A stretch of 64,000 nt of DNA from Thermoplasmata archaeon (GTDB lineage: Archaea; Thermoplasmatota; Thermoplasmata; Lutacidiplasmatales; SKW197), in the NCBI GenBank assembly GCA_026414225.1, contig JAOAJK010000003.1, forward strand, positions 1-64,000, in the 5' to 3' direction. Under the pieces are notes generated by a model. The model was not told the DNA's origin. It made no database searches and saw only the letters and a program-made list of their open reading frames with translations. Positions 22,698 to 55,002 of the stretch are shown piece after piece (within the stretch, counting starts at the first letter, position 1; every line of letters starts with the position of its first letter). The position numbers and the translations under genes are program-made.

Positions 22698-25600
22698 TCA
22701 GTATTTTTGCTGCGGGTTCTGGGGTTGCTGCGGGTAGGGTGAGCCAGGTTGCTGCGGTGGATAACCACCAGGCGGCGGTTGATAGTAGGGCTGCTGGTAG
22801 TAGGGTGGTTGCTGGACCTGCTGGGGCTTTGGAGGTTTGCGGGCATGGAGGGCGTAAGCTACTGCACAGATGACAACCACAACCAGTAAAAGCCCAACCA
22901 TCACGATAAGCCATAATGGGATCTCGCCTAAAAATCCAGATGGAGGTGTCCCGGTTTCTATGTTCACAATCAGCAACTCGGTGGTTGCATTTCCCTCCTT
23001 GAAGTTCTCCTTGGCTGCACTCACGGCAATTCTCACAGTGGTATTGCCGCTCACCTCGGGGGCTTTGAATTCCACAACGAGTTTCCCGCCGGCATCAGTG
23101 AAGTCCGTTTTTGTGAAATAGGTTCTGTTTTCGTCCGAAATTACGATGGAAACCTCCGCATCTTCCACACCGTTTCCGTCCGCACTCACTATAGTGACCA
23201 GCTCCACAGTGCTACCCTCGTTCACAGTCGTGTTTACCAGGATTTCAACGAGAAGCTGGAGCATCGGAAGCACCGTAATGTTAACGGTGCCCGTGCATTT
23301 CTTGTAGCCGGCTTTCTCCGCCATAACCGTGATGGTTGCGGTTGTAGGGACATCCACAATTGCGGGAGAGTACACAACAGGAGTCATAGGGGTACCGGCA
23401 GCATTGGTTTTTGTGGTTTCTGGCACTACAATTCCCAGGGTGGTAGTTATCGTGAGATTTGCCCCGCCGACAGGTGAGGTCCCTACGGTCACAAGAATCC
23501 CGATTTCCATTGTTTCGTAGCACATCATCGTCCCCTTCTCCACCGAGAGGTTGAGCTTAAGCGTTGCTAGCTCTGGGTACACATTCACCGTGAGGTTAAG
23601 CATTGCACTGGTGTAACCGCTCCTGGTGACATAGATTCTTAACATGCACTCCGTCACCGTTGTCACATACGGAGCCGTTACATTTGTGGTGAAAATTCCA
23701 GCGGTGGTGAATCCGTCGGTTTTGTTCACTGCGAGTCCATTGGTTGCCTCAATGTGGATAGAAGCACTATCAACTGGTTGATTTGCTTCGTCCTTCACCG
23801 AGACATTGAGTTCCGCGGTTTCGTTAGAATTGAGCGCATCAGGGATTAGTGTGGCATTCATGTAGAGAGGGGGCAGCACTATTTTTATATCCATCTGGGT
23901 GGTTCCATTCGCATACCCCTGTTTCGCGGCAATCACATTGATTGTCACCACTGTTTCTGCGGTCACAACCGGTGCGGTATAGACCGCGGCAAATTCGCCA
24001 GTGAGATTTGTTTTTCCTGTCTGGGGACTTACACTTCCCGAGGCGGTGGTGAGAACCACATCTGCATCGGAAATGGAGGTACCTGATTCGGTGACAGTTA
24101 CAAGCAGATTTGAGCTGCCTCCAGACCTTACTACTGTGGGCTCTGCTTTAATCTTCACCACCAGCGATTTTTCGTAAACCGTGACATCGTAAACTGGAGT
24201 GGCGTTCAGGTTTCCACAGAGGTCCTTTGCCTCAATATAATAGCTCAGTCCTCCAACGGTTACAGCAGTGCCTGGAATGGTGGCAGTATAGTTGCTGCTT
24301 ACATTAGACATCAGGATGCTGGTATATCCCGGGTCAGAGGTCTTTTTGTAATGCACCATTGCCTCCTTCACACCCTTGTTATCGGTGATAACCGCGTCGA
24401 TTTTTATGCTCGCGCCTGCAAGCCATGAGGTTACGGGGGTGTGCACAATTTCCGGCTTTACAGGGTCAGCATGGGCGTTGTCCAGTGTAAAATTGGAATC
24501 GGACATATCAAAAGCCGTCAGGTTCTGGGCATCCACCGCATATATTCCTATTCTGTAGTTGGGCCCGTCCTGGAGTCCCCAGGTATCCCACGCATAGCTG
24601 CCCTGCGAAGCTGGAATGTTGCGGGCAATCTCAATCCAGGTGGTTCCATTGTCCGTGGAATAAAAGAGGTCCACGGTGTTTGCCCCTGCAACACTCCAGG
24701 TTATGCTCACGGTGCCCGACACATTTTCCCCGCCATTTGGTGATGTCACCGTGACTGAAGGAGGGGACGAGCCAGTCAAAAACTTCAGAATTTTATCCAT
24801 TATATCGTTTCTGGCATTCGTGTCCTGAATGTCCTCAAATGCAAACGCAAAGTAAACCATCCTATAGCCACCTGAATATCTTATGGCTGCATCAGTTTTT
24901 CCGCTTACCTGCCCGTATGAATTAAAAGTGTCCTGCTGGAAGGAAACAGTACCGCCGTTGTTTGTGATGTCATCAGGGTAGAATCCGTAATTCATGTTAT
25001 CTTTTATCAAAGTGCCGGCAGTGTAGGCATCACCTATCGGGTCGCCTGCCTGTCCGTAAATATTTGACTGTGTTGGCGGGTTGGTTGTACTATCGGAGGG
25101 CACATCTCGGTTATAGGTGGCATGCAGGTAGTTCGTGTAGAAGGACTGCTCGGACGCAGTGCCCCCATTGGCAAATATATCCCAGCCAATGTCCTGGCCT
25201 GAAACAAACAGATTGCCTCCTGCATCCAGGTAGGCCTTCAGGATGTTGGTTTCATTCTGCCTCAGCTGGGGATAACATTCACTCGTGTGCCATACAATTG
25301 CCTTGAAATTCCCCATTGCGTAAATATTGGGTGCACCTTGGGTGTTGTAGTCCCAGTAACCGAGCAGCCAGCCCTTGCTCTCAATCGCATCCGAATAGTA
25401 TTTATCCAGATTCACGCCAGAATCATCGTCGACCAGCAGGATGTTGCCCCGCTTCGTGGTGAAGGTGAAATGCGCTCCGTTGTTATCCTCAAGTGTGGGA
25501 TGCCCTGAGGGGTCCGTGGAAAGCACATCAAATACATAGGTGGTATCAGGCATCAAGCCGATGAGTTTGAGGGAATGATGCAAAACACTGGTGTTGGCGG

Positions 25601-28148
25601 AAACCGTGGTGACCGGCGAAGCGGTTCCGTATTTAACTGTTGAATCTGCGGTCTCATCGGTATCCCACTCAATCACCGCGCTGGTAGCGGTAATACCCAT
25701 CACACGCACATTTGAAATTTTCGGAGGTACAGTGTCTGCAACCGCACGGGCAATGGCATACCAACCAGGTGCAGAAGGGTCAGCATAGGCAGCAAAAATA
25801 TCATCACCATTGGAAATCTGAAGAACCCCTGGGGCATCGGTGAGTGAGGTGTTAATCTTGCCCACAAATTTCTTTGAACCGGGTGTTATTTCCGTCAGCG
25901 TCACGGTTTCAGGGGTTTTCTCCGTGGTGCTGTTGATTCCTACAGATACCGTGCTTGTGGTGGTATCAAAATCCCGGACCGTGATTGTAATCGTATCATT
26001 TTCTTTGTAAACATTCTTGTCCAGTGAGATTTCTCCCCGTGTATCATCCACACCCCCAGTAATCACTAGAGAGAAGGGCTGGGGGCCATTGGGCACATTA
26101 GTCCCGATAACCCGCACTATCCAGACCCCTGTTGCTGGTGTGTTTATGTAAACACATTCCTCCACATTGGTGCTGTCCGCGGTGCCTCCAGATACGGACT
26201 CACTGTTCGAAAACACATTTCCGAGATAGGTTGTGTTCGTCGGCGAAATTACCACGAGGTCCAGGTTGTTTACGATGTCCTTGGCCGCAGGGGGATAGCC
26301 AGGGTAATCAGTCCATACAAGCACACACCTGAGAGGTACCGAGCTTGAGGAGACATAGTAGGCATATTCTGCACTCTGGCCTGTGCCTATTCCATTCGTG
26401 TTATCCACTATTCTGAGTTTTCTCGTGTCTCCCGCAAAGTAAAGCGAATCTTCGAGGTTGATTATGCCCCACCCCTGGTTGTTATCGGGTATGTTTGTTG
26501 TCATTTTTCTTGCACCCGCAATCAGAGTGGCTTTGATCAAAGAGGCGGAGGGCGTGATTGCGTTCGATGAAACCTTGTTTCCTGTTGGATACCAGCCCTC
26601 CGTGTAATACTGGCGCACAAGGGCGGCACCGCCAGCCGTGGTGGGTGTAGCCATTGAAGTTCCGCTCATCGAAAGATAACCTGAGTTGTTCGAATTCTTT
26701 ATGCCGTCGGAATCCGCGGAAATTATGCTGTCCCCAGGGGCACAAACAGTCGGCTTCCTCCGTCCATCCGCGGTTGGGCCCCTGCTTGAAAAACTTGTCA
26801 CTGCTGAACCATCATGGGCAGTTGCACCCACCGTGACAATGTTCTTTGCAGTGCCCGGGTTTCCAACCGTATAACCAGAGGGCCCGCTGTTACCTGCGGC
26901 AAAGAGGATGAGCATGTCCTTGTGGTTCCACATAAACTCATCCGTCTGCTGCGCCTCTGTGCCGTAATCGTTGTTGGAATCGCCCCAGGAATTGGAGTGC
27001 AGCCTTGCCCCGTCATTGTACGCCCACTGGTAAAGGGTGTTGAGGTTTGAGGGTATCGCAAGGGAATCCCCAGAGCCACCTATATCTGTAAATGAAATTT
27101 TGGCACTCGGGGCCATCCCCCTGCCGTTTGCATTCGTGCCCCCCACATAGGAGTTATTTCCTGCAATTGTGCCTGCCACATGGGTCCCATGCCCTGAGCT
27201 TGCAAGGTCATAATCGTTAACATAAACATGGTAGTTCACAATTTTTCTGTGCTGTAGGTCGGGTGGCTGGGAGCCGGCAGGGTTGCTGTACCTTATCTGG
27301 TACCGGCTCGGGTCCCTGAAGGCCTCATGGTCCCAGTCAATTCCAGTATCGCTCTCCCCGACAATCTGCCCATCTCCGTAAAGCCCCCTGTTCCAGATTG
27401 GTGTGTTTCCGCTCGTGCCTGACTGGATCACACCTGCAGCGACCGAATTGAAGAGCCGTACTGGGTACCATTTTTCAATCCATGCAACTGTGGGAATGTG
27501 TGCCACGAGGGGCAGGTGATCGGATGTCAGCACTGTGTTGATTATGTGAAAATTGCCACCTTCCTCCGCGGCAATCACCTCAACTCCGACCCTTTTCAGA
27601 ATGGCTACGGTTCTCTGAAGATTTTCATTCCCGAACACCAGAATTTTGACCCGCGTCTCCTCCTCAATGTTCCACAGGTCTGGGTGGACTTTGTAGTAGG
27701 GCTGGTAAATCCCGACCCATCTCACAAATCCGAGGGAGGCAACTGTGTCCAGCACAAATTTGTCCATTTTCACGATGAAGGCGTAGTTGGGAAGATAACT
27801 TACAATTTTGGCACCTGTGCTTTCAAGCGCCATTTTCCATTCATCTCTGACGTTTCCCTGCATCTGGACGATGTAATACCCGGGAAAACTGTTCGGATAC
27901 TCCTGAATTTTCATAACTGGTGGTATTTCCGGCTCAGATTTCAGAGGGTCGAAGTTGCTTGCCTTCAAAAGAATTCGAAAGTCGCAGGGCGTTTCTGCCT
28001 GCTCCATCGCCGCTTGATTTATTTCCTCCTGCTTTTTCATCCGATTTGTCCAAGCATAACCATGAAACGGCAGAAGCACAGTCAGGCCATGTAGAAGTAA
28101 CAAGCACAGCACCAGAAATGCAAATGCCCTTTTCCACATTTTTATCAC
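22698..28148 (-). CDS. Large secreted/membrane-anchored S8 subtilisin-like protease with Ig/invasin-like repeats, C-terminal TM helix and Pro/Gln/Tyr-rich tail
   Basis: 1816 aa; signal peptide; catalytic DTGIDWDH, SSGHGTHVAGTIAG, SGTSMATPTTAG; fibronectin/Ig-like repeats; TM LWLIVMVGLLLVVVVICAVAYAL then PPKPQQVQQPPYYQQPYYQPPPGGYPPQQ. Confidence 0.93.
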   Translation of the reverse strand: MIKMWKRAFAFLVLCLLLLHGLTVLLPFHGYAWTNRMKKQEEINQAAMEQAETPCDFRILLKASNFDPLKSEPEIPPVMKIQEYPNSFPGYYIVQMQGNVRDEWKMALESTGAKIVSYLPNYAFIVKMDKFVLDTVASLGFVRWVGIYQPYYKVHPDLWNIEEETRVKILVFGNENLQRTVAILKRVGVEVIAAEEGGNFHIINTVLTSDHLPLVAHIPTVAWIEKWYPVRLFNSVAAGVIQSGTSGNTPIWNRGLYGDGQIVGESDTGIDWDHEAFRDPSRYQIRYSNPAGSQPPDLQHRKIVNYHVYVNDYDLASSGHGTHVAGTIAGNNSYVGGTNANGRGMAPSAKISFTDIGGSGDSLAIPSNLNTLYQWAYNDGARLHSNSWGDSNNDYGTEAQQTDEFMWNHKDMLILFAAGNSGPSGYTVGNPGTAKNIVTVGATAHDGSAVTSFSSRGPTADGRRKPTVCAPGDSIISADSDGIKNSNNSGYLSMSGTSMATPTTAGGAALVRQYYTEGWYPTGNKVSSNAITPSASLIKATLIAGARKMTTNIPDNNQGWGIINLEDSLYFAGDTRKLRIVDNTNGIGTGQSAEYAYYVSSSSVPLRCVLVWTDYPGYPPAAKDIVNNLDLVVISPTNTTYLGNVFSNSESVSGGTADSTNVEECVYINTPATGVWIVRVIGTNVPNGPQPFSLVITGGVDDTRGEISLDKNVYKENDTITITVRDFDTTTSTVSVGINSTTEKTPETVTLTEITPGSKKFVGKINTSLTDAPGVLQISNGDDIFAAYADPSAPGWYAIARAVADTVPPKISNVRVMGITATSAVIEWDTDETADSTVKYGTASPVTTVSANTSVLHHSLKLIGLMPDTTYVFDVLSTDPSGHPTLEDNNGAHFTFTTKRGNILLVDDDSGVNLDKYYSDAIESKGWLLGYWDYNTQGAPNIYAMGNFKAIVWHTSECYPQLRQNETNILKAYLDAGGNLFVSGQDIGWDIFANGGTASEQSFYTNYLHATYNRDVPSDSTTNPPTQSNIYGQAGDPIGDAYTAGTLIKDNMNYGFYPDDITNNGGTVSFQQDTFNSYGQVSGKTDAAIRYSGGYRMVYFAFAFEDIQDTNARNDIMDKILKFLTGSSPPSVTVTSPNGGENVSGTVSITWSVAGANTVDLFYSTDNGTTWIEIARNIPASQGSYAWDTWGLQDGPNYRIGIYAVDAQNLTAFDMSDSNFTLDNAHADPVKPEIVHTPVTSWLAGASIKIDAVITDNKGVKEAMVHYKKTSDPGYTSILMSNVSSNYTATIPGTAVTVGGLSYYIEAKDLCGNLNATPVYDVTVYEKSLVVKIKAEPTVVRSGGSSNLLVTVTESGTSISDADVVLTTASGSVSPQTGKTNLTGEFAAVYTAPVVTAETVVTINVIAAKQGYANGTTQMDIKIVLPPLYMNATLIPDALNSNETAELNVSVKDEANQPVDSASIHIEATNGLAVNKTDGFTTAGIFTTNVTAPYVTTVTECMLRIYVTRSGYTSAMLNLTVNVYPELATLKLNLSVEKGTMMCYETMEIGILVTVGTSPVGGANLTITTTLGIVVPETTKTNAAGTPMTPVVYSPAIVDVPTTATITVMAEKAGYKKCTGTVNITVLPMLQLLVEILVNTTVNEGSTVELVTIVSADGNGVEDAEVSIVISDENRTYFTKTDFTDAGGKLVVEFKAPEVSGNTTVRIAVSAAKENFKEGNATTELLIVNIETGTPPSGFLGEIPLWLIVMVGLLLVVVVICAVAYALHARKPPKPQQVQQPPYYQQPYYQPPPGGYPPQQPGSPYPQQPQNPQQKY

Positions 28149-44518: not shown

Positions 44519-47071
44519 TCACCCATTCACCACCCTCTTCACCTTTCCAAGCCGTGTCTTCACAAACCCAGGATTCTCCGAGATTTCCACGGTAAATTCA
44601 ATCCAGCCCTTCTCGAGCCCCATCCTCAACTCCTCAATTTTTGCAATTATTGCTCTCCGCAACCCTTCCGCATCTCCGGTGCCCCGGACCTTCAGGCTAA
44701 TCGTTTTTCCGCACACGGCAACCTGGAACTGCACTTCCTCAGCGTTCAAAACCCTTCTCAGTACATCCTCTACCTCGGAGGCATGGAATCGGATGTTGCG
44801 GGCCATCACCATTTCATCCACCCGCCCACCCAGTTTGAAGGTTTTGCCAGTGTATCCACATTCACAAGTGCCTTCGAGCCATTCTCCCCTGTCGCCTGTT
44901 CTGTAGCGAATTATGGGGGTGGTGCGACGGTAGAGCGGGGTTACAATTATCTCACCCTCCTCGATTTCGACGAAGACATCGGGGAGGCAGTGATGGACCC
45001 CCTCTCCCCTCACAGGGCAGGGAAACGCAATCGGGCCTGTGTCAACGCAGGCGTACCCGGCGCTCCTTATTTTCACATCTGGCAACACCTGGCAAATCAT
45101 CGCTTCGTCTACCTTTGGAAAGGGTTCCCCAGCATAGAAAATTTTCTCCAAGCTTTTCAGCTTTTCCACCATCCCCGTTTCTCCCGCAACCTGGAAAATT
45201 CTGGTTATGTTTGCGGGCATTCCCATCAATGCAGTAACTTTAAACTTCTCAATCAGTTCAATTGCCTTCTGCTCCTCTACCTCCCCTCCGAGGGGCAGCA
45301 CAGTGCAGTTTATCTGGAGCAGGGCCTCATTTACTGCCAGAAACCCAGACCACAGCTTACCAGGGATAAATAGGTTGAGCACCCTATCATCAGGTTCGAG
45401 CCCCGCGTGGGCAAGTCCGTAGGCCAGAAGTTTTGCCGAGTAGTGAAATTCCTCGTTTGAGTAAAACCCATACTTTGGTGCACCTGTGGTGCCCCCGCTT
45501 GAAAACAGGTATCCAGTTGCCTTCCTGCTCAGCAGGCCATCGCCATTCGGAGGCAGGTTAAGGCGGACATCCTCACCTGTCAGGTAAAAATTCTCATCTT
45601 TCAGTCCCGAATAAAACTTTGTGCTGGCTTTTGCAAACCCGAGCAGTTCCTCCTTTCTTATTCTGGCAATTTCCTCATCGTAATCGAGCAGCGAAGTTCG
45701 CACATTTTCTTTGAGGGCCGCCCGTCTATCCAGTCCGTCCGCAGAGCCCCAGCGTAAAAGCTGTGCAAGCTGAAACACACCATCATGGGGTGAGCCATTC
45801 GTTGAGGTCAGAGCCATTCCCATCGGCACAACCTTCGTCATTCCTGCCTTTAAAAGCTCGAGGGCATACCTCTGCCGCACCCTATCGTTTGCATAAACGC
45901 TGCATGTCTGGAGAACTTCTCTGTATCTCCCCAGCATCTCAAGAAACGCTCCAAAATCCCTGTATGGCTTCACTATCAGGAATCGCCCGAGGGGAGAGGG
46001 CGTAATTTCCATCGTTTCATCAAAAACCACATGCCATTTACCAGCACGGGAACGGGCAAACCTCCCTTTTCCTTTCAGGATCTCTCCCACCCTGTACAGC
46101 TCAAAAGTTCTCAGGCTCTCCACATAATCATCGTCGGTTGCCTCGCTCCTCGGAAGCGATTGCTCGATTGCTTCCATCTCTTTTGCAATCGCCTCTATAA
46201 GCATCTGCACTTTTTCTGGTTCTCCGTCAGGCACGAACAGGTTCTGGGGGCTCGCACAGGACGCCTGATCAAAGATGGCAACATCCCTCGCCACGAGTCC
46301 CGCAATTTCAGGGAGTTTTTCCTTCGTCCAGTCCTCGGCTGCAACCAGTGCAATCCCGATTTTTGGCCCGAAACCCAGGAACCGTGTGGTGTAGGGGAGG
46401 TCCCGTGCGTAAAACCGCATTGCTTCGTCGCCACCGTAGGCAAGAACCGCATCGCATCTGGACTTTAGCAGGTCGAGGTTCTCAATCTCCTCTCTCTCGA
46501 TGTTCAGCATGCAGAAGGCGGAGGAAATCACGCCCTCCTCGTCAAGTTCCCGCATCTTTCTGGCAAACAGGAGCGGGAGGTAAACATTGTCGCTGCTCAA
46601 CCGCACGATAGGAACATTCTTGGTGAGGAGGAGCGCCGCAAATGTGTCAATCGTGGAGAGGAATATGTTGCCCGCGGGCACGAAGAATACAACTCCAACG
46701 GGGGCAGCATGAAGCATACCCTCATAACCCGGTTTTGTCACGAATGTGTCCAATACATCGACTGAACCGATTTCATTTCTCACCCGTTCAGCCATTCCCT
46801 CGTAACTCAGAATTTCCTGAAGGTATGTGAAGCAGAGTTCAATCATTGCCCTGGATATCTGGAGCTCCTTCTCGAGTTCCGGAATAATCTCCCCCTTTTC
46901 CTCCAGGATTGCCCTGCCCGTCTTCACGAGCAGCTTCATAATCTTCTTTACAGGAACCTGCCGGAGCCGTGCAGATTTTTTTCTCGCAACTGCAATTATT
47001 TCCTCCAGTTCTTCGATGGTGAGTTTTTTTGCCCTCTCCACTTTCCCGAACAGATAATTCACACGGTCCAT
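44519..47071 (-). CDS. LuxC-like acyl-CoA/acyl-protein reductase fused to PaaK/LuxE-like AMP-forming acyl ligase
   Basis: N-half LuxC-like with catalytic-Cys context VAIFDQASCASPQNLFVP; C-half adenylate-forming motif YLFSSGGTTGAPKYGFYS and IRYRTGDRGEWLEGTCECGYTGKTFKLGGRVDEMV; start trimmed to MDRVNYLFGK. Confidence 0.85.
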   Translation of the reverse strand: MDRVNYLFGKVERAKKLTIEELEEIIAVARKKSARLRQVPVKKIMKLLVKTGRAILEEKGEIIPELEKELQISRAMIELCFTYLQEILSYEGMAERVRNEIGSVDVLDTFVTKPGYEGMLHAAPVGVVFFVPAGNIFLSTIDTFAALLLTKNVPIVRLSSDNVYLPLLFARKMRELDEEGVISSAFCMLNIEREEIENLDLLKSRCDAVLAYGGDEAMRFYARDLPYTTRFLGFGPKIGIALVAAEDWTKEKLPEIAGLVARDVAIFDQASCASPQNLFVPDGEPEKVQMLIEAIAKEMEAIEQSLPRSEATDDDYVESLRTFELYRVGEILKGKGRFARSRAGKWHVVFDETMEITPSPLGRFLIVKPYRDFGAFLEMLGRYREVLQTCSVYANDRVRQRYALELLKAGMTKVVPMGMALTSTNGSPHDGVFQLAQLLRWGSADGLDRRAALKENVRTSLLDYDEEIARIRKEELLGFAKASTKFYSGLKDENFYLTGEDVRLNLPPNGDGLLSRKATGYLFSSGGTTGAPKYGFYSNEEFHYSAKLLAYGLAHAGLEPDDRVLNLFIPGKLWSGFLAVNEALLQINCTVLPLGGEVEEQKAIELIEKFKVTALMGMPANITRIFQVAGETGMVEKLKSLEKIFYAGEPFPKVDEAMICQVLPDVKIRSAGYACVDTGPIAFPCPVRGEGVHHCLPDVFVEIEEGEIIVTPLYRRTTPIIRYRTGDRGEWLEGTCECGYTGKTFKLGGRVDEMVMARNIRFHASEVEDVLRRVLNAEEVQFQVAVCGKTISLKVRGTGDAEGLRRAIIAKIEELRMGLEKGWIEFTVEISENPGFVKTRLGKVKRVVNG

Positions 47072-48201
47072 CAAGCTCCCTCCTTCAGGGTTTCCATCGC
47101 CTTGAAGGCACAGCCCTTCCATTTTGTTCTTCCAGCCCTTCCTGTGATTCTCAGGACAGAACCAGGTCTTCCGCAGCTGCAGTTCCCCTCAACCACGCCG
47201 TAGTCGGTGGAGAGCACCGAAAGCACAGGGTAACCAAAGTGATAGGGTGTGTAGAAGTGGAGCAGCCCCTGTTCTCCGTGGTCTAAAATTGAGAGGTCAC
47301 TCGGTTTTCTAGCGACTACCCTGGAATAGTTCGGGATGTGCAGGTTACCTTCCTCACAGTCAAGGTACGGAATTCCGTGTTCAACGAATCCAAACGAATC
47401 TCTCAGCCGCGAGGGACTGATTCCGAAAAACTCGGACACAAATTTTCTGAACTCCGGTTTCTCAATCTTTTTGTCTTCAAAGGTTTTCCAGCCACCACCA
47501 GTAAGGAGCATTGAATCGGGATGGAGCTGGAGCTTTGAATATCCCAACCTCCGCAGTTCTTCAATCGTAATTATGAGATGGGCCGGAAATCCGCAGATGC
47601 GGAGAGGCACATCTTCGCTGGCAAACTCCACAAGTTTTTTCGCAGTTTCCTCGGGGGAAAACACGAAGCCCTTTTCCTCGCCCTTCCATTGAATTGCATA
47701 GAACTTGCTCCGTATCTTCGTGAATCTGGTGTTGGATTCATCGCTGAAGGCGGTGCCAAGGTCCCTTGCATAATGAGGGTCGTAGGAGAAGAGCAGGTAG
47801 TTGCACTCCACATCCGTCGCTACAACACCCATTTCCTCATGGATTTTCCAGGCAATCTCCAGAATCCGTCGGAGGGTTTCCGCATCCAGATAGGTTTTTG
47901 TTTTCATGCCCCCTGTGCCAGAGGATGTGAGGGTGAGCTTTATTTTTTCCTCCGGTAAAAATTTGAAGTCGTACATCTTGAGACAGGACACAAAGACATA
48001 TGGAATCCTGTAAATGTCCTCAAAACTGTTGAGGTTTCTGGCGGTAAAATTTGCATGTTCGCAAATCTTCCGGTAGTGGGGAGAATGGTCGTACACGAAC
48101 TCAAAATTTTCCTTCATTGCGTTGAGAAACAGTTCATCCGCCTTGCTACCAGTCCTGAAGGCGCCGTAATCTATCAGTTCATCAATCGCCATCTTCACCA
48201 T
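47071..48201 (-). CDS. LuxE-like acyl-protein synthetase
   Basis: LTLTSSGTGGMKTKTYLD, LLTGGGWKTFEDKKIEKPEFRKFVSEFFGIS, DSFGFVEHGIPYLDCEEGNLHIPNYSRVVAR. Confidence 0.85.
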   Translation of the reverse strand: MVKMAIDELIDYGAFRTGSKADELFLNAMKENFEFVYDHSPHYRKICEHANFTARNLNSFEDIYRIPYVFVSCLKMYDFKFLPEEKIKLTLTSSGTGGMKTKTYLDAETLRRILEIAWKIHEEMGVVATDVECNYLLFSYDPHYARDLGTAFSDESNTRFTKIRSKFYAIQWKGEEKGFVFSPEETAKKLVEFASEDVPLRICGFPAHLIITIEELRRLGYSKLQLHPDSMLLTGGGWKTFEDKKIEKPEFRKFVSEFFGISPSRLRDSFGFVEHGIPYLDCEEGNLHIPNYSRVVARKPSDLSILDHGEQGLLHFYTPYHFGYPVLSVLSTDYGVVEGNCSCGRPGSVLRITGRAGRTKWKGCAFKAMETLKEGA

Positions 48202-48204
48202 AGT

Positions 48205-49437
48205 TCAAACCTCCTCAATCAGGGGAAGTGCATTTGCCAGGTAAAATTTTGACCAGACCTTTATGTAATGTTCAAGGTACTCTTTCGCCTTCCCGGTGAG
48301 CCGGATTTTGTTGAAGTCAAATGCCTCGAAGGTGCGGGAAAACACCACATAGTCCTTCAGGAAACCATTTTCAGGGTGCATGCACGGGTAGTAGGCAGAG
48401 GGAATAAATCTCGCCCTCAATGCCCTGAACAGAAGTTCTGTGTCATCGGCTGGAAGCATGATTTCCACATACCTTGCGCCGAGCACGAGCATCGTATTGC
48501 ATACCTCCTCCAGATACCTTTCATAAATATTTCGCTTCATGTTCTCGGCAATGAGCATGCAGTATCTGGACTCCCTGTTGAAGTAAACGAATACCTCGGT
48601 TGTCCCATCGTCCGAGATTAGCAGTAAATCCGGCTCGAAAAATGAGAAGTACCGGACATTTGTCGCCCCTGTTTTCTTTCTCTGCGCGAATCTCCGCTGG
48701 ATGAACATCTTCGCGGTAATTGGTTCAAAACCAATCTTTTGCGGTTGCTTCTCCTCAGCCACTGCGGGAATAAATCCACTTTCGGCTACCTCGGGCACAT
48801 CAGGCAGATGCAGGTTCGATGCAGCCGCAGAATACAACTGTCTCACCTCCGGGGGCAGGGCTTTGATACCGGGGTATCTCCTCTCCTTTACGCTTGGACT
48901 GAAGAACACCAGGAGTAGCAGTGTCTCGTAGTCAGACACCTTTTTTAAATTCGGGTAGATCCCGAAGATTTTGGTTGCAAGGTCTTGGTGCTCGAAATCA
49001 ACACCCGGGATGCAGGTCCGCAACTCCATGTAAAAACTGTCCAGGATGTTTTCCCTCTCAGTGAGGGCTATTCTTGCAAATTCGGTGAGTTTGTAAATCA
49101 CTATTCCGATGAGGGCATCGTTGTCAACCACCAGCCCGATTATCCTTCCTATCCGGTTTTCATGGTCAATCTGGACAATCGTGCTGCCCTCCATCTTTCC
49201 GTTGCCCATGTTGATGCACACGGCCCAGAAGTAATTCTGGGAGGAGATAGTAGTGAGAAATGCGGTTCTGTTTGCTGCTTCTGGAACGCTGAAACTACCC
49301 ATGTCTTCAGGAGTATAGAGATTCCTTATCTGCTCCCAGTCCTCCTCAAGAGCATGCCGCAGGAGGTATTTCTGCTCCATGTGAACGAACTCCATCCTCT
49401 CGTGTCTCGCTTTCTCAACTGGAGGGATTGCTGCCAT
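48205..49437 (-). CDS. GNAT-like protein (410 aa), tandem paralogue 1
   Basis: YLLRHALEEDWEQIRNLY N-term GNAT-like; FRALRARFIPSAYYPCMHPENGFLKDYVVFSRTFEAFDFNKIRL shared with the next gene. Confidence 0.65.
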   Translation of the reverse strand: MAAIPPVEKARHERMEFVHMEQKYLLRHALEEDWEQIRNLYTPEDMGSFSVPEAANRTAFLTTISSQNYFWAVCINMGNGKMEGSTIVQIDHENRIGRIIGLVVDNDALIGIVIYKLTEFARIALTERENILDSFYMELRTCIPGVDFEHQDLATKIFGIYPNLKKVSDYETLLLLVFFSPSVKERRYPGIKALPPEVRQLYSAAASNLHLPDVPEVAESGFIPAVAEEKQPQKIGFEPITAKMFIQRRFAQRKKTGATNVRYFSFFEPDLLLISDDGTTEVFVYFNRESRYCMLIAENMKRNIYERYLEEVCNTMLVLGARYVEIMLPADDTELLFRALRARFIPSAYYPCMHPENGFLKDYVVFSRTFEAFDFNKIRLTGKAKEYLEHYIKVWSKFYLANALPLIEEV

Positions 49438-49438
49438 C

Positions 49439-50671
49439 TCAGTCCTCCTCCTGCTTTCTGAGATAGAACCTGGACCACACCTTCACATAGTGCTTCAGGT
49501 ATTCGCTGTATCTTCCCACAAGCTTTATCTGCATGAAATCAAACGCCTCAAAGGTGCGGGAGAGCACCACATAGTCCCTCAGATGACCGTTTACATACCG
49601 CATGCAGGGATAGTAAGCACATGGAATAAATCTGGCTTTGAGGGCCTTGAAAAGCAGGTCCGTCTCATCCGCAGGGACGAGTAGCTCGATGTACATCGCC
49701 CCGAGGTCATACATGACCTTTGAAATTGCATTCAGATAGTGGTCATAGTGAACACTGTTGAGGTTGTCGCCTATAATTGCACAGTGCTGGAATTCTTTCT
49801 CAAAATACATGAACACCTCTGTAAAGCCATCTGTGCTGCAGAGCAGCAGATTCGGGGTATGAAAGGAAAAGAGATGGATGTTGATTATTCCTGCCTTCCT
49901 GCATTCCTCAAAGTGTCTCTTTATGTATTTGGGGGCGTCTATAACTTCAAATTTGATTTCTGGTTCGTTCGTTCCCTCCTGCTTACCGTAGAACTGGCTT
50001 TCCTCGATAACTGGAACACCGGGCAGACCCACTTCTTCAGCAGCAATTTTGTAGAGTGAGTGGACTTCTGGAGGAAGGCCTGGAATTCTCGTGTATCTCT
50101 TTGCAAGGGCATGGGGTGCGAAGTAAACTGCAAGTGTGTGGGTCTCGTACTCCCCCACCTTCTTCACATTCGGAAACAGCCCGAGCTTTTTAAATCCGAG
50201 CTTTTCTGTAATCCTCTGGGGGGCCACAAGAAGGGTTCTCGTCGTTGCATAGATTGTGTCCGCAATGCGGGATTTCTGGATAATCAGTTCAATCCCGAAG
50301 ATTGTCATTTTTTCCATGATTGAGAAGCCCCTGTAGTCAGGGTCCACCGCCGCACCGAAGGTCTTTGCCAGACGGTTCGTTGCATCAACTTCAAACAGCA
50401 CGCTCCCGATCACCTTCTTCCCGTCGCAGCACAGGAGCCAGAGAAAAGAAGGGTCTGAGATGGTTTCAAGCATCATCTCCCTATCTGTTATGATTTTCGA
50501 GTGGTAGTTTGGACCATAAATCTTCCAGTAGAGATTCTGAATCTCGCTAGCATCCTCTGGTTGTGCATGGCGGAACAGAAATTGCCTGCCGTTTGCCTCG
50601 TAAAACTGGGTTTTATCTTTGAATGCCTCGAGCCCCAACATTGCCTTCTCCTCTTGAGATGTTGGATGCAA
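49439..50671 (-). CDS. GNAT-like acetyltransferase (410 aa), tandem paralogue 2
   Basis: FLFRHAQPEDASEIQNLYWKIYG, VIGSVLFEVDATNRLAKTFGAAVDPDYRGFSIMEKMTIFGIELI (GNAT core). Confidence 0.75.
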   Translation of the reverse strand: MHPTSQEEKAMLGLEAFKDKTQFYEANGRQFLFRHAQPEDASEIQNLYWKIYGPNYHSKIITDREMMLETISDPSFLWLLCCDGKKVIGSVLFEVDATNRLAKTFGAAVDPDYRGFSIMEKMTIFGIELIIQKSRIADTIYATTRTLLVAPQRITEKLGFKKLGLFPNVKKVGEYETHTLAVYFAPHALAKRYTRIPGLPPEVHSLYKIAAEEVGLPGVPVIEESQFYGKQEGTNEPEIKFEVIDAPKYIKRHFEECRKAGIINIHLFSFHTPNLLLCSTDGFTEVFMYFEKEFQHCAIIGDNLNSVHYDHYLNAISKVMYDLGAMYIELLVPADETDLLFKALKARFIPCAYYPCMRYVNGHLRDYVVLSRTFEAFDFMQIKLVGRYSEYLKHYVKVWSRFYLRKQEED

Positions 50672-50945: not shown

Positions 50946-53414
50946 CTATGCTCCTATCTCCTGAGTTTCTTGGAACATCGGAATAATTGTGGAACTGAAA
51001 CAACTTAGCCCTTCTATCACGAACGGCAGCTCATTGTAGGTTCCCTTGTATTCCACAATTGGATAGTGATAACCTAAGTATCCGTCTTTTTTAATTGCAT
51101 CTGCATCAACCCAGCCCCTGCCGTTGATATAGAAATAACCCCACACATGCCCGTACTGCCCGCTTGAAAACTGGCAGACCGCATGCCTGTACAGAGCGGG
51201 TATTCCTATTGCCCTGGCTAACGCATTTTCGGCATGGGTATGGTCGCAGCAGTTGATCGAGCTCACCTCAAAAATTGCTCTGTAGGCGCCGTACTGGGTG
51301 TTGTAATAGAAAGCATAGCTCTTCTGGTCCCTCACCCATGCATACACGGCTTCCCCAGATTTGTACATCGCATCATTCGGGTTGAGGGTCCCGTTATTAG
51401 CCTGGTTAGAATAAGTGCAGATGATGCTCATCGCCTTGTTGATAATGCTCACATTTGTTGCCTGACAGTTTGCAGTTGCACCCGTATACTGGGAGTTCGC
51501 ATCTGTTTTAAAGCCGGGAACTGGTTTTACATACGCTGAAGAGGGCAAAGCACCATTGTAGTAATACCATCGCACAATTCTGGTATTGAGGTAAAGGATT
51601 TCCCACATCCTTATCTTCCCGATTACTGAGTTTGCGTAATTTGGAGCCACACTGTTATTTTCAATGAATCTGTAAACCCTGTAAGCTATATCTGCGTATT
51701 GGGCGGGTGCGAGAGAGCCATAATAAGCATCTCCAGATGGATTTGAGGCATAGCCACAGGTGGGAAGTGCGTAGCTTGTATTTGAGGAGTTAATGTAAAG
51801 GTCATGCACAAGCTTTGAGGATATGTAGAGAATCTGGGGCATTGTTAAATTGCCCTGGCTTGCGTTCACATACTTCGGAGCCCTGGTATAGTTCTCGATA
51901 TAGTTTGCAACCCTTACACAGGCGTTGATTGCCTCATCCTTGGTCAAGCCAGTTTGATTGCTTTCCCCTTCCTCAAACCGCAAAACTCCATCTTGCGAAA
52001 CCTTTATCCAGTATCCACATCCAGGCATCAATAGTTCACTTTTCTCCATCGTTGCCAGCAATGTGCTTGAGTTGGCATCAAACTTTTCTATGACCTCTAC
52101 AGATAAATTGCCAAAAACCTCGGTTACGGTTCTGGGTGTGAGGAGAGGATAGGCAATTAGATTCCAGCCAGCTTTCAGCTGCATCTCGTAGGTGCCCACA
52201 TACTGACCATAAAGGGGCAATGTGCACGGAGCGTCCGAGGTAATGTTTATCCAGTAACCAGTTCTCCAGCTTACATTCATGAAATGATTTGGATGGTTGA
52301 ACTCTGGCCTATTTGGGTCATAAAGCTTCCATCTACCAGCCAGGGAATCATATGTCCAGATTACGCTGAATTTACCCCAAATTGGCTGGAAGACGGCCTT
52401 CACCGTAGAATTCTGGAAAAGGATATGGGGTAGGGAAATAAGATTCCATCCTGGATTGAGCTGAATTTCGAAGGTTGCAGTAATTACGGAATACTGGTCA
52501 ATGACCTGATACTGGGCTGAAGTTATTGGATATTTAAAGAAGTTCACTCCATCCGCACCCCCTGAAATGGCATAGTTAATACAGCCCTGAAGTTCAGTGT
52601 TGTTCATGTATTGGCCGTTGTCGTCTAGCGACTGGATTGCAGTCCAGACCTTGCAGTTTGGATTCCCTAGCTTTGCTTTTTGTTTTACATACTGGGAGAC
52701 CGTACCCACCCACGATGTTTGCTGGTTATAATTATGCGTGTAGGCCATGGGCATCAGGACATCAAGGTATTGGGCCATCTGTGTATAGTTCTGGCCATAG
52801 TAGTAGGCATTTGCATCCATTTCAGGCATCACGGCAGCACCCATCATTGCGTTCGGCTTGTAAAACTTGATGAGAGCGGATACTTCCTGGCAGAAAGAGG
52901 TTATAGGATAGGTATTGCCATTTGCGGTGCCAGGATACCTTATGCAGTCAAGCACCACTCCATCAAAACTGTAGTTCTGGGCGAGCGGGATGAAGATGTT
53001 GGTCTTGAGGTAACTCCTGTATGCAGTTGAATTTGGGTCTACCCAGCCACCCCAGGACTCATCATCAAAGCATATCACCCACGCGTGAACCCTGATTCCA
53101 TAATTGGTGCAGTTTTCATACATTGCCTCAAGGCGGTCAAACCTGTAGGTGCCGGAGACCCCCTTTATCAGCACAAATACATCGCTGAATCGATGCTGCG
53201 ACAACTCAGAGGCGAGGGTAGCGGCCCCGACACTTGCCACATCGGTACCCCAGACCCAGACCCCCTTTGAGCCCACCTCGATCCCATTCAACTCTGAATT
53301 GGCACCGAGGTCTTTGTTTTCAAAAGCATTTCCTGCTATCTGAAGATAGATCGGAGAAACTAGTGCGAGAATGCACAACAGGGCCAGGCAAACCCCCATT
53401 ACTCCCCGCTTCAT
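50946..53414 (-). CDS. Secreted multidomain hydrolase: glycosidase-like TIM barrel + two pseudomurein-binding-like repeats + transglutaminase-like cysteine peptidase domain
   Basis: Signal peptide; SFDGVVLDCIRYPG / VLMPMAYTHNYN (glycosidase-like); repeats LTKDEAINACVRVANYIENYTRAPKYVNASQGNLTMPQILYISSKLV and YADIAYRVYRFIENNSVAPNYANSVIGKIRMWEILYLNTRIV; C-term SSINCCDHTHAENALARAIGIPALYRHAVCQFSSGQYGHVWGYFYINGRGWVDADA. Confidence 0.85.
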   Translation of the reverse strand: MKRGVMGVCLALLCILALVSPIYLQIAGNAFENKDLGANSELNGIEVGSKGVWVWGTDVASVGAATLASELSQHRFSDVFVLIKGVSGTYRFDRLEAMYENCTNYGIRVHAWVICFDDESWGGWVDPNSTAYRSYLKTNIFIPLAQNYSFDGVVLDCIRYPGTANGNTYPITSFCQEVSALIKFYKPNAMMGAAVMPEMDANAYYYGQNYTQMAQYLDVLMPMAYTHNYNQQTSWVGTVSQYVKQKAKLGNPNCKVWTAIQSLDDNGQYMNNTELQGCINYAISGGADGVNFFKYPITSAQYQVIDQYSVITATFEIQLNPGWNLISLPHILFQNSTVKAVFQPIWGKFSVIWTYDSLAGRWKLYDPNRPEFNHPNHFMNVSWRTGYWINITSDAPCTLPLYGQYVGTYEMQLKAGWNLIAYPLLTPRTVTEVFGNLSVEVIEKFDANSSTLLATMEKSELLMPGCGYWIKVSQDGVLRFEEGESNQTGLTKDEAINACVRVANYIENYTRAPKYVNASQGNLTMPQILYISSKLVHDLYINSSNTSYALPTCGYASNPSGDAYYGSLAPAQYADIAYRVYRFIENNSVAPNYANSVIGKIRMWEILYLNTRIVRWYYYNGALPSSAYVKPVPGFKTDANSQYTGATANCQATNVSIINKAMSIICTYSNQANNGTLNPNDAMYKSGEAVYAWVRDQKSYAFYYNTQYGAYRAIFEVSSINCCDHTHAENALARAIGIPALYRHAVCQFSSGQYGHVWGYFYINGRGWVDADAIKKDGYLGYHYPIVEYKGTYNELPFVIEGLSCFSSTIIPMFQETQEIGA

Positions 53415-53493: not shown

Positions 53494-55002
53494 TTAATGA
53501 GAATTCCCCTTCCTCTGTCTGTAATCTTTTTCACCAGGAAACATGAAGCCCACCAGGAAGATACCAAAGGCGGATATCAGGGCAACGGTTGCTGGCGCGA
53601 AAAACTCCAGCATCGCTGAAAATGTGAAGAACGAAACTGGGAGCGAGAAGGAAGCCACGGTAAAGAGGAACGAGATTATCCGCCCCTGCAGGGGTCCTTC
53701 CGTCTCTATCTGGAAGAAAACGGTTACATACACATTTGTAAGGGCAAGAATGAGTCCAAACAGAAGGAAAAAGCCAGCAGTCACTGGGAACCAGGGCGAA
53801 AGCGCCATTCCGAGAAATGCACATGCAGTTGCCAGCATGAACAATTTTCCATATTTGAAGAGCGGGAGCACGTTCATCTCCTTCTTGAACGCAAGGTAGA
53901 AGGTTGCAATCAGGGCCCCGGCCCCGATTGCGGTCTCGAGCATGCCCATTTCCACGGAACTGGCATGGAAAACATTCTTTGCAAAGATTGCGGGAAAAAG
54001 CACCATCACACCCGCAAAGAAGTTCACTGCCCCGAACAATGCCACAAGTTTCACCATGAAGCGGTTTCTGGAAAGGTAATTCAAACCCTCCCTGAAGTCA
54101 TCAAGAAAACGGGTTTTTTCAGCCGAGGCCATCTCCGGAATTTTCATTGAAGCAATCAGCACAAAGCTGAAGAAAAAGGTGGAGGCAGTGATCAGAAACA
54201 CATCGTTTATCGGGAGGAGGGCAATCAGGATGCCCGCAATCATTGGGCCAGTAACATTAGCGGTATACATACCCATGTCAAGCAAGCTGTTGGCTCTCAC
54301 AAGATTCTGCTCTCCAACTATCCTCGGCACCGCAGAAACAGACGCAGGATTGAAGAGGGAAGCAAAGGAAGAAATGGTAATCGCTGCAAGGTAAATTGAA
54401 ATCAACGAGAGATGCCCCAGCAGGAATACCTGGGAAAACATCAGCAGCATCACTATCACCCGTGCGATGTCCGCGCCCATCATGAGCGATTTTTTATGGT
54501 AGCGGTCGGCAAGCACCCCGCAGAACGGTCCAAGCACAACGAGCGGAATTGAGTTGGCGAGCACCACGATTCCCATGTCCATCGCGGAGCCCTGATAGTT
54601 CAATGCCCACCACATCACGGCGAGAAGGTAAATCTGGTCCCCGACACGGCTCACGAACTGACCAACAAACAACCGCAGGAAATTTGTGTTGATGAAAAAC
54701 CTGGGCTTTTCTTTTTTTCCCTTTTCTGGTGGGGGCTGCGGGGCATACGAGGCAGATGGTGGCGGTGCAGGATAGGCAGCTACAATTCTGGGCGGGAACC
54801 TGTATTGCGGGTTGATGCGGAGCGGTGCCTTTTTTCTTTCGATCAGAACTGCCTTCGGCAACTTCTCGTAGTCAAGCGGCTGGTGATAGTCAGGGTTCAC
54901 CTTCCAGACGCCTTTTTTCTTTTCCTGAATCACATGCTTCGGCAGTTTCTCGTAGTCCAGAACTTGTTTTTCCTCCGCGGTTCCTTTCCTTTCCTCGGTC
55001 AT
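53494..55002 (-). CDS. MFS transporter with duplicated N-terminal cytoplasmic motif
   Basis: 12-TM-like hydrophobic profile, QFVSRVGDQIYLLAVMWWALNYQGSAMDMGIVVLANSIPLVVLGPFCGVLADRYHKK; N-terminal LDYEKLPK repeat. Confidence 0.88.
   Translation of the reverse strand: MTEERKGTAEEKQVLDYEKLPKHVIQEKKKGVWKVNPDYHQPLDYEKLPKAVLIERKKAPLRINPQYRFPPRIVAAYPAPPPSASYAPQPPPEKGKKEKPRFFINTNFLRLFVGQFVSRVGDQIYLLAVMWWALNYQGSAMDMGIVVLANSIPLVVLGPFCGVLADRYHKKSLMMGADIARVIVMLLMFSQVFLLGHLSLISIYLAAITISSFASLFNPASVSAVPRIVGEQNLVRANSLLDMGMYTANVTGPMIAGILIALLPINDVFLITASTFFFSFVLIASMKIPEMASAEKTRFLDDFREGLNYLSRNRFMVKLVALFGAVNFFAGVMVLFPAIFAKNVFHASSVEMGMLETAIGAGALIATFYLAFKKEMNVLPLFKYGKLFMLATACAFLGMALSPWFPVTAGFFLLFGLILALTNVYVTVFFQIETEGPLQGRIISFLFTVASFSLPVSFFTFSAMLEFFAPATVALISAFGIFLVGFMFPGEKDYRQRKGNSH

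Follow-up and report, generated by a model that had tools for sequence, protein, structure and literature searches.

The analysed stretch of DNA (hereafter the window; 64,000 nucleotides at the start of contig JAOAJK010000003.1 of a Thermoplasmata archaeon) possessed four intact, tightly packed minus-strand ORFs, listed at 44519-47122, 47071-48201, 48205-49437 and 49439-50671. Both the four-gene operon and its order were those of the original prediction, with small corrections of start codons. Gaps of 1-3 bases separated the genes, except for the luxE/fusion pair, which overlap. The ORF encoding the fusion of an acyl reductase and an AMP-forming ligase (LuxC::PaaK) opens at 47122; its start is most likely 47071 instead (44519-47071, minus strand, 850 aa), because the luxE stop codon and an ATG overlap there as TGATG behind a GGAGG. 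Likewise, the GNAT1 ORF opens at 50671 with a TTG, and translation probably begins at 50641 (MLGLEAF, a start shared with the sister species described below), giving a gene at 49439-50641. Scans for sigma-70 promoters and terminators returned matches slightly above chance, such scans being uninformative for archaea.

The ALDH-fold LuxC domain of the fusion (45749-46960, minus strand), an acyl-thioester reductase domain, matched PF05893 (2.7e-66) and carries its catalytic Cys in the FDQASC motif at about 46256-46258. The PaaK-like adenylating ligase domain (44522-45583, minus strand) matched the AMP-binding Pfam family (5.9e-9) and contained SSGGTTGAPK, YRTGD and C-terminal GK motifs, so that the proposed joining of a LuxC-like reductase and an AMP-forming ligase in a single polypeptide stands. 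The LuxE-like acyl-protein synthetase (47071-48201, minus strand) could also be verified by its match to PF04443 (2.6e-38); it has an acyl-accepting Cys364 at 47110-47112, and is 31-36% identical to the cassette LuxE of Streptomyces and Salmonella. In alignments, the window fusion kept the LuxC Cys, the PaaK P-loop, the YRTGD/GD motif and the C-terminal Lys, and the LuxC Cys was kept in all intact relatives. It aligned with the Cys of LuxC, and Cys364 with that of LuxE, in structure 7xc6.

The names of these families, and the fact that the bioluminescence complex 7xc6 supplies the best solved relatives of both LuxE and the LuxC domain, would suggest a Lux-like reductase of fatty or isoprenoid acids, in which LuxE activates a long-chain acid, LuxC converts it to an aldehyde serving membranes or signalling, and the GNATs are incidental. 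We regard this as very unlikely: the scores fell far short of the equivalog cut-offs (112.7 vs 750 bits for LuxC, 89.9 vs 550 bits for LuxE), the recurring cassette partners are an N-acyltransferase, a ligase and an exporter rather than a luciferase or thioesterase, and the genome (93.6% complete) contained no match to the luciferase family PF00296. This last result extends to the whole genome the absence of luciferase genes already pointed out around the operon, and, with the low LuxC and LuxE scores, led to rejection of a bioluminescence lux pathway. A carrier protein, which the original prediction had suggested looking for, was not detected either, as the PP-binding domain PF00550 had no match in the whole genome, while the positive control matched in 11 of 14 genomes; an NRPS pathway was rejected on this basis. 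Two ordinary PaaK genes were found on another contig. Neither the window nor the sister-species locus contained a standalone second PaaK-like ligase, which is lacking also in Elusimicrobia and some Streptomyces.

Both remaining proteins had been described as GNAT-like, which is borne out, with a qualification for the second. GNAT1, an N-acyltransferase with two GNAT-like halves (AF2 model, pLDDT 90.7), matched the GNAT family (PF00583; 2.2e-4) and was homologous over its whole length, C-terminal half included, to a Streptomyces GNAT. The best PDB fold matches of its model were N-acetyltransferases, including the two-domain histidine acetyltransferase 9en3/9emp, with which both domains aligned over 388-395 columns with a large rmsd, perhaps owing to domain placement. 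GNAT2 (48205-49437, minus strand), a diverged paralogue with 42% identity to GNAT1, has lost the GNAT signature: it had no Pfam family match, was the only one of 28 aligned proteins lacking a GNAT match, and no longer contains the TTRTxxxAPQ and YRG motifs. GNAT2 probably assists GNAT1 without being catalytic itself, as a structural partner, or it may have taken on a new function.

A gene encoding an MFS exporter (53494-55002, minus strand) lies 2.8 kb from GNAT1. It is probably part of the operon, because it abuts GNAT1 in the sister species; in related bacterial loci the exporter gene adjoins the fusion. Between the exporter and GNAT1, the minus strand encodes a secreted protein that combines pseudomurein-binding repeats with a transglutaminase-like domain (50946-53414), whose membership of the operon is doubtful since the sister species lacks it at the corresponding position; it could be a cysteine hydrolase that has no connection with the operon beyond lying next to it. 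Elsewhere in the window, positions 22698-28148 encode a very large (1816 aa) subtilisin-like serine protease with mycosin as best match, the sort of enzyme that a peptide aldehyde might target. An undivided RpoB and a PRK06380-type hydrolase agree with a Thermoplasmatota-like archaeon.

The genus was represented by one further species (G001, locus L007), which possessed all four genes in the same order beside hypD, with 78-90% identity. Between the two species dN was 0.06-0.14 with silent sites near saturation, so that amino-acid change was far below silent change in all four genes, and all four, GNAT2 included, therefore appear to be under constraint. Contamination was rejected, as the synteny with rpo and hyp genes is identical in the two species at this level of identity. 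In the proposed search of other archaea, 8 of the 300 genomes examined from the class had the full fusion, two belonging to this genus and six carrying a second form; neither the fusion nor the GNAT was found in the 39 other genomes searched from the same order. In some families of the phylum (G344, G373, G389 and many others), genomes had at least four LuxE-family matches each, mostly to the C-terminal half only.

Among bacteria, a tblastn search of plasmid records recovered loci of Streptomyces and Salmonella in which 80% of the fusion was covered, with a PaaK ligase, MFS, GNAT and LuxE as neighbours. A single-sequence scan of genome contigs returned nothing; an alignment-based scan of 85,488 species yielded 368 relatives confirmed by tblastn. 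The best 80 of the 368 were taken further, and 86 loci were examined in all. LuxE was also present at 82 of these 86 fusion-bearing loci, and GNAT and MFS genes at most of them. The recurring cassette comprises a GNAT, LuxE, LuxC::PaaK as one protein, an exporter (its linkage being seen in several lineages) and often an extra PaaK ligase; hundreds of bacterial species possess it, among them 15 of the 398 Enterobacteriaceae sampled. Full-length homologous cassettes were present in Xenorhabdus (L078, L100) and in Streptomyces roseus ATCC 31245 (L073), and loci of Pseudomonas, Xenorhabdus and Enterobacteriaceae encoded LuxE, LuxC::PaaK and PaaK together with a shorter GNAT. Among full-length bacterial relatives, those of Elusimicrobia were the closest (28-31% identity); these bacteria possessed GNAT, LuxE and LuxC::PaaK without the extra ligase.

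LuxC/LuxE-like genes are also mentioned for flagellin-glycosylation islands of Aeromonas and Enterobacteriaceae (PMC7874193, PMC4875605), which could point to a small carboxylic acid being turned into an aldehyde or amide that decorates surface glycans or flagellins. Such a role is highly improbable here: no glycosyltransferase, nucleotide-sugar or carrier gene recurred as a cassette partner at the loci examined, and no carrier domain was detectable in the genome.

Further observations concerned individual bacterial loci. Conjugative plasmids annotated as Salmonella enterica (L026, CP053580.1; L028, CP054717.1) carried a leupeptin-type operon near recombinase genes. An Elusimicrobium locus (L038:9986-12271) contained a decaying copy of the fusion, shortened, with the catalytic Cys replaced by Ser and the P-loop lost. 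A gene for an M29-family aminopeptidase recurred near the cassette in six Elusimicrobiota genomes (L031, L032, L034, L037, L038, L040).

A leupeptin cluster, leupABCD, was reportedly described by Li et al. in 2020 from Klebsiella michiganensis, Xenorhabdus and Photorhabdus. The Klebsiella cluster spans 5831 bp and lies beside a transporter (PMC8283571), and homologous operons of LuxE, LuxC::PaaK, PaaK and GNAT measured 5757-5854 bp. The forward primer for leupA translates as MKIAIHN and the leupB primer, read as its reverse complement, as EQLKDHA; the 1235 bp leupAB product fits LuxE followed by LuxC::PaaK up to residue 20-27 (ELKGKLA in L157). The leupA primer site had no exact match in 300 Enterobacteriaceae and none with up to 5 mismatches in the fetched loci, so that the assignment of leupA to LuxE and leupB to LuxC::PaaK, which we infer, draws on size, order and primer geometry rather than on identical sequence. 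In addition, S. roseus ATCC 31245 has been documented to produce leupeptin (PMC10548850), and X. bovienii is stated to make leupeptin without an NRPS, by means of separate AMP-dependent ligases and a reductase that forms the aldehyde (PMC11212599). With 368 relatives, LuxE at nearly all fusion loci and the match to leupeptin clusters, the earlier picture of an isolated archaeal gene set acting on an unidentified class of substrate did not hold.

The tree of the fusion consisted of two clades. That of the window, which a long and fully supported branch (SH-aLRT 100) sets apart from the leupeptin clade, also contained Elusimicrobia, Sericytochromatia/basal Cyanobacteriota-like bacteria and two other members of the phylum, G360 and G578; in G360, LuxC and PaaK are separate neighbouring genes. 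The other clade comprised Streptomyces roseus, Pseudomonas, Xenorhabdus and Salmonella, together with archaea of the same class as the window. Archaeal monophyly was rejected (constrained tree; AU p = 7e-11), indicating that archaea obtained the system at least twice, and the tree places a second, independently acquired form in other families of the class. By its position, the window cassette is judged to be a family-level relative of the leupeptin clusters and not an orthologous leupeptin cluster. A characterised pathway, which the original prediction had named as grounds for setting its reading aside, thus exists among homologues in the bacterial sister clade, the source of the leupeptin precedent, but no member of the window clade has a characterised product.

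The second archaeal form (L136:4528-15012, L141 and L143) was embedded among partner-switching regulators, with a SpoIIE phosphatase carrying a HATPase, and RsbW-like HATPases fused to the protein in the GNAT position in one case and to a MATE exporter in the other. The fused HATPases are anti-sigma-type kinases, here joined to biosynthetic and export proteins. Short cassette neighbours in a spirochaete (L075:2-409) and in Sulfurimonas (L069:11355-12076) have a SpoIIE/STAS-type partner-switching look, by eye only.

Taken together, the genes probably encode a leupeptin-type, NRPS-independent pathway producing an N-acylated peptide aldehyde. The basis for this reading is the gene content, the kept gene order, the intact catalytic residues, the homology to the clusters of producers and the lack of a detectable carrier. 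It would also agree with the acyl-aldehyde or N-acyl conjugate put forward in the original prediction. As the cassette is common in bacteria and matches published leupeptin clusters, an N-acylated amino acid or peptide is the most likely acyl group, rather than a fatty or aryl acid. Substrate specificity could not be read from the sequences, and the substrate could have changed, the window fusion being only 24-31% identical to the bacterial forms.

The order of steps, the substrates, the product and the purpose of this pathway are those that we infer. GNAT1 would cap the amino group of an amino acid with an acyl group from acyl-CoA, and the PaaK-like domain of the fusion would then adenylate the capped amino acid to an acyl-AMP and couple it to a second amino acid. 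LuxE would adenylate the free carboxyl of the capped peptide, load it onto its own Cys364 and hand it to the catalytic Cys of LuxC, where reduction of the thioester with NAD(P)H would give a C-terminal aldehyde, to be exported by the MFS protein. One ligase is present here, against two in the leupeptin clusters, which yield a tripeptide; a dipeptide would then be the simplest product, and our guess is an N-acyl-dipeptide aldehyde. It would target proteases of the serine or cysteine type, or close to form a pyrazinone signal, and a small protease inhibitor or signal is probably what the archaeon makes and exports.

The peptide aldehyde might instead be an intermediate closing to a dihydropyrazinone or pyrazinone autoinducer, since pyrazinones arise, once proteolytic processing has taken place, from the leupeptin clusters of Klebsiella and Photorhabdus/Xenorhabdus (PMC11480411). 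Freeing the N-terminal cap would take a protease, and the operon has none besides the uncertain transglutaminase-like neighbour, which leaves a cyclic signal of this kind an unlikely end product. Returning to the leupeptin-type reading, a broader proposal can be offered tentatively, as a possibility on the doubtful side: archaea would have independently taken up a carrier-free peptide-aldehyde pathway in at least two versions, of which that of the single-ligase clade would make a new, shorter N-acyl-dipeptide aldehyde, using a pair of one active and one GNAT-dead acyltransferase, as an archaeal protease inhibitor or signal.

No report of an archaeal peptide aldehyde was found in the literature searched. 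This kind of cassette is already known; as far as that literature shows, its presence in archaea, the sister clade with one ligase and the duplication of the GNAT are new. Few small molecules made by archaea are known, and the cassette offers a compact, testable gene set for an archaeal peptide aldehyde. It delimits a sister clade of the leupeptin pathway whose architecture is simpler, alongside the second form in other families of the class, and is a clean system for the re-use of LuxE/LuxC-type chemistry on peptides instead of fatty acids.

Among known systems, leupABCD and the S. roseus cassette resemble the window locus in the LuxE-like synthetase, the LuxC::PaaK fusion in one polypeptide, the GNAT, the neighbouring transporter and the compact operon; leupABCD is also described as relying on separate AMP-ligases and an aldehyde-forming reductase with no NRPS. 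The window differs from these in lacking an adjoining standalone PaaK, in its duplicated and diverged GNAT, in its separate deep clade and in its archaeal host. With the luxCE fatty-acid reductase (7xc6) it shares the fold, the LuxC catalytic Cys, the LuxE acyl-Cys and, presumably, the chemistry from acyl-AMP through acyl-Cys to aldehyde, whereas it has no luciferase or thioesterase, has a ligase domain fused to LuxC and scores far below the equivalog models. The expected product class, a peptide aldehyde, is that of NRPS reductase domains (flavopeptin, antipain, livipeptin), but the window genome has no detectable carrier-protein domain and its enzymes are free-standing. Finally, the adenylation domain possesses the P-loop, YRTGD and terminal Lys motifs of the PaaK (phenylacetate-CoA ligase) family, from which it differs in its fusion C-terminal to LuxC, its shortened N-terminus and its presumed formation of an amide rather than a CoA ester.
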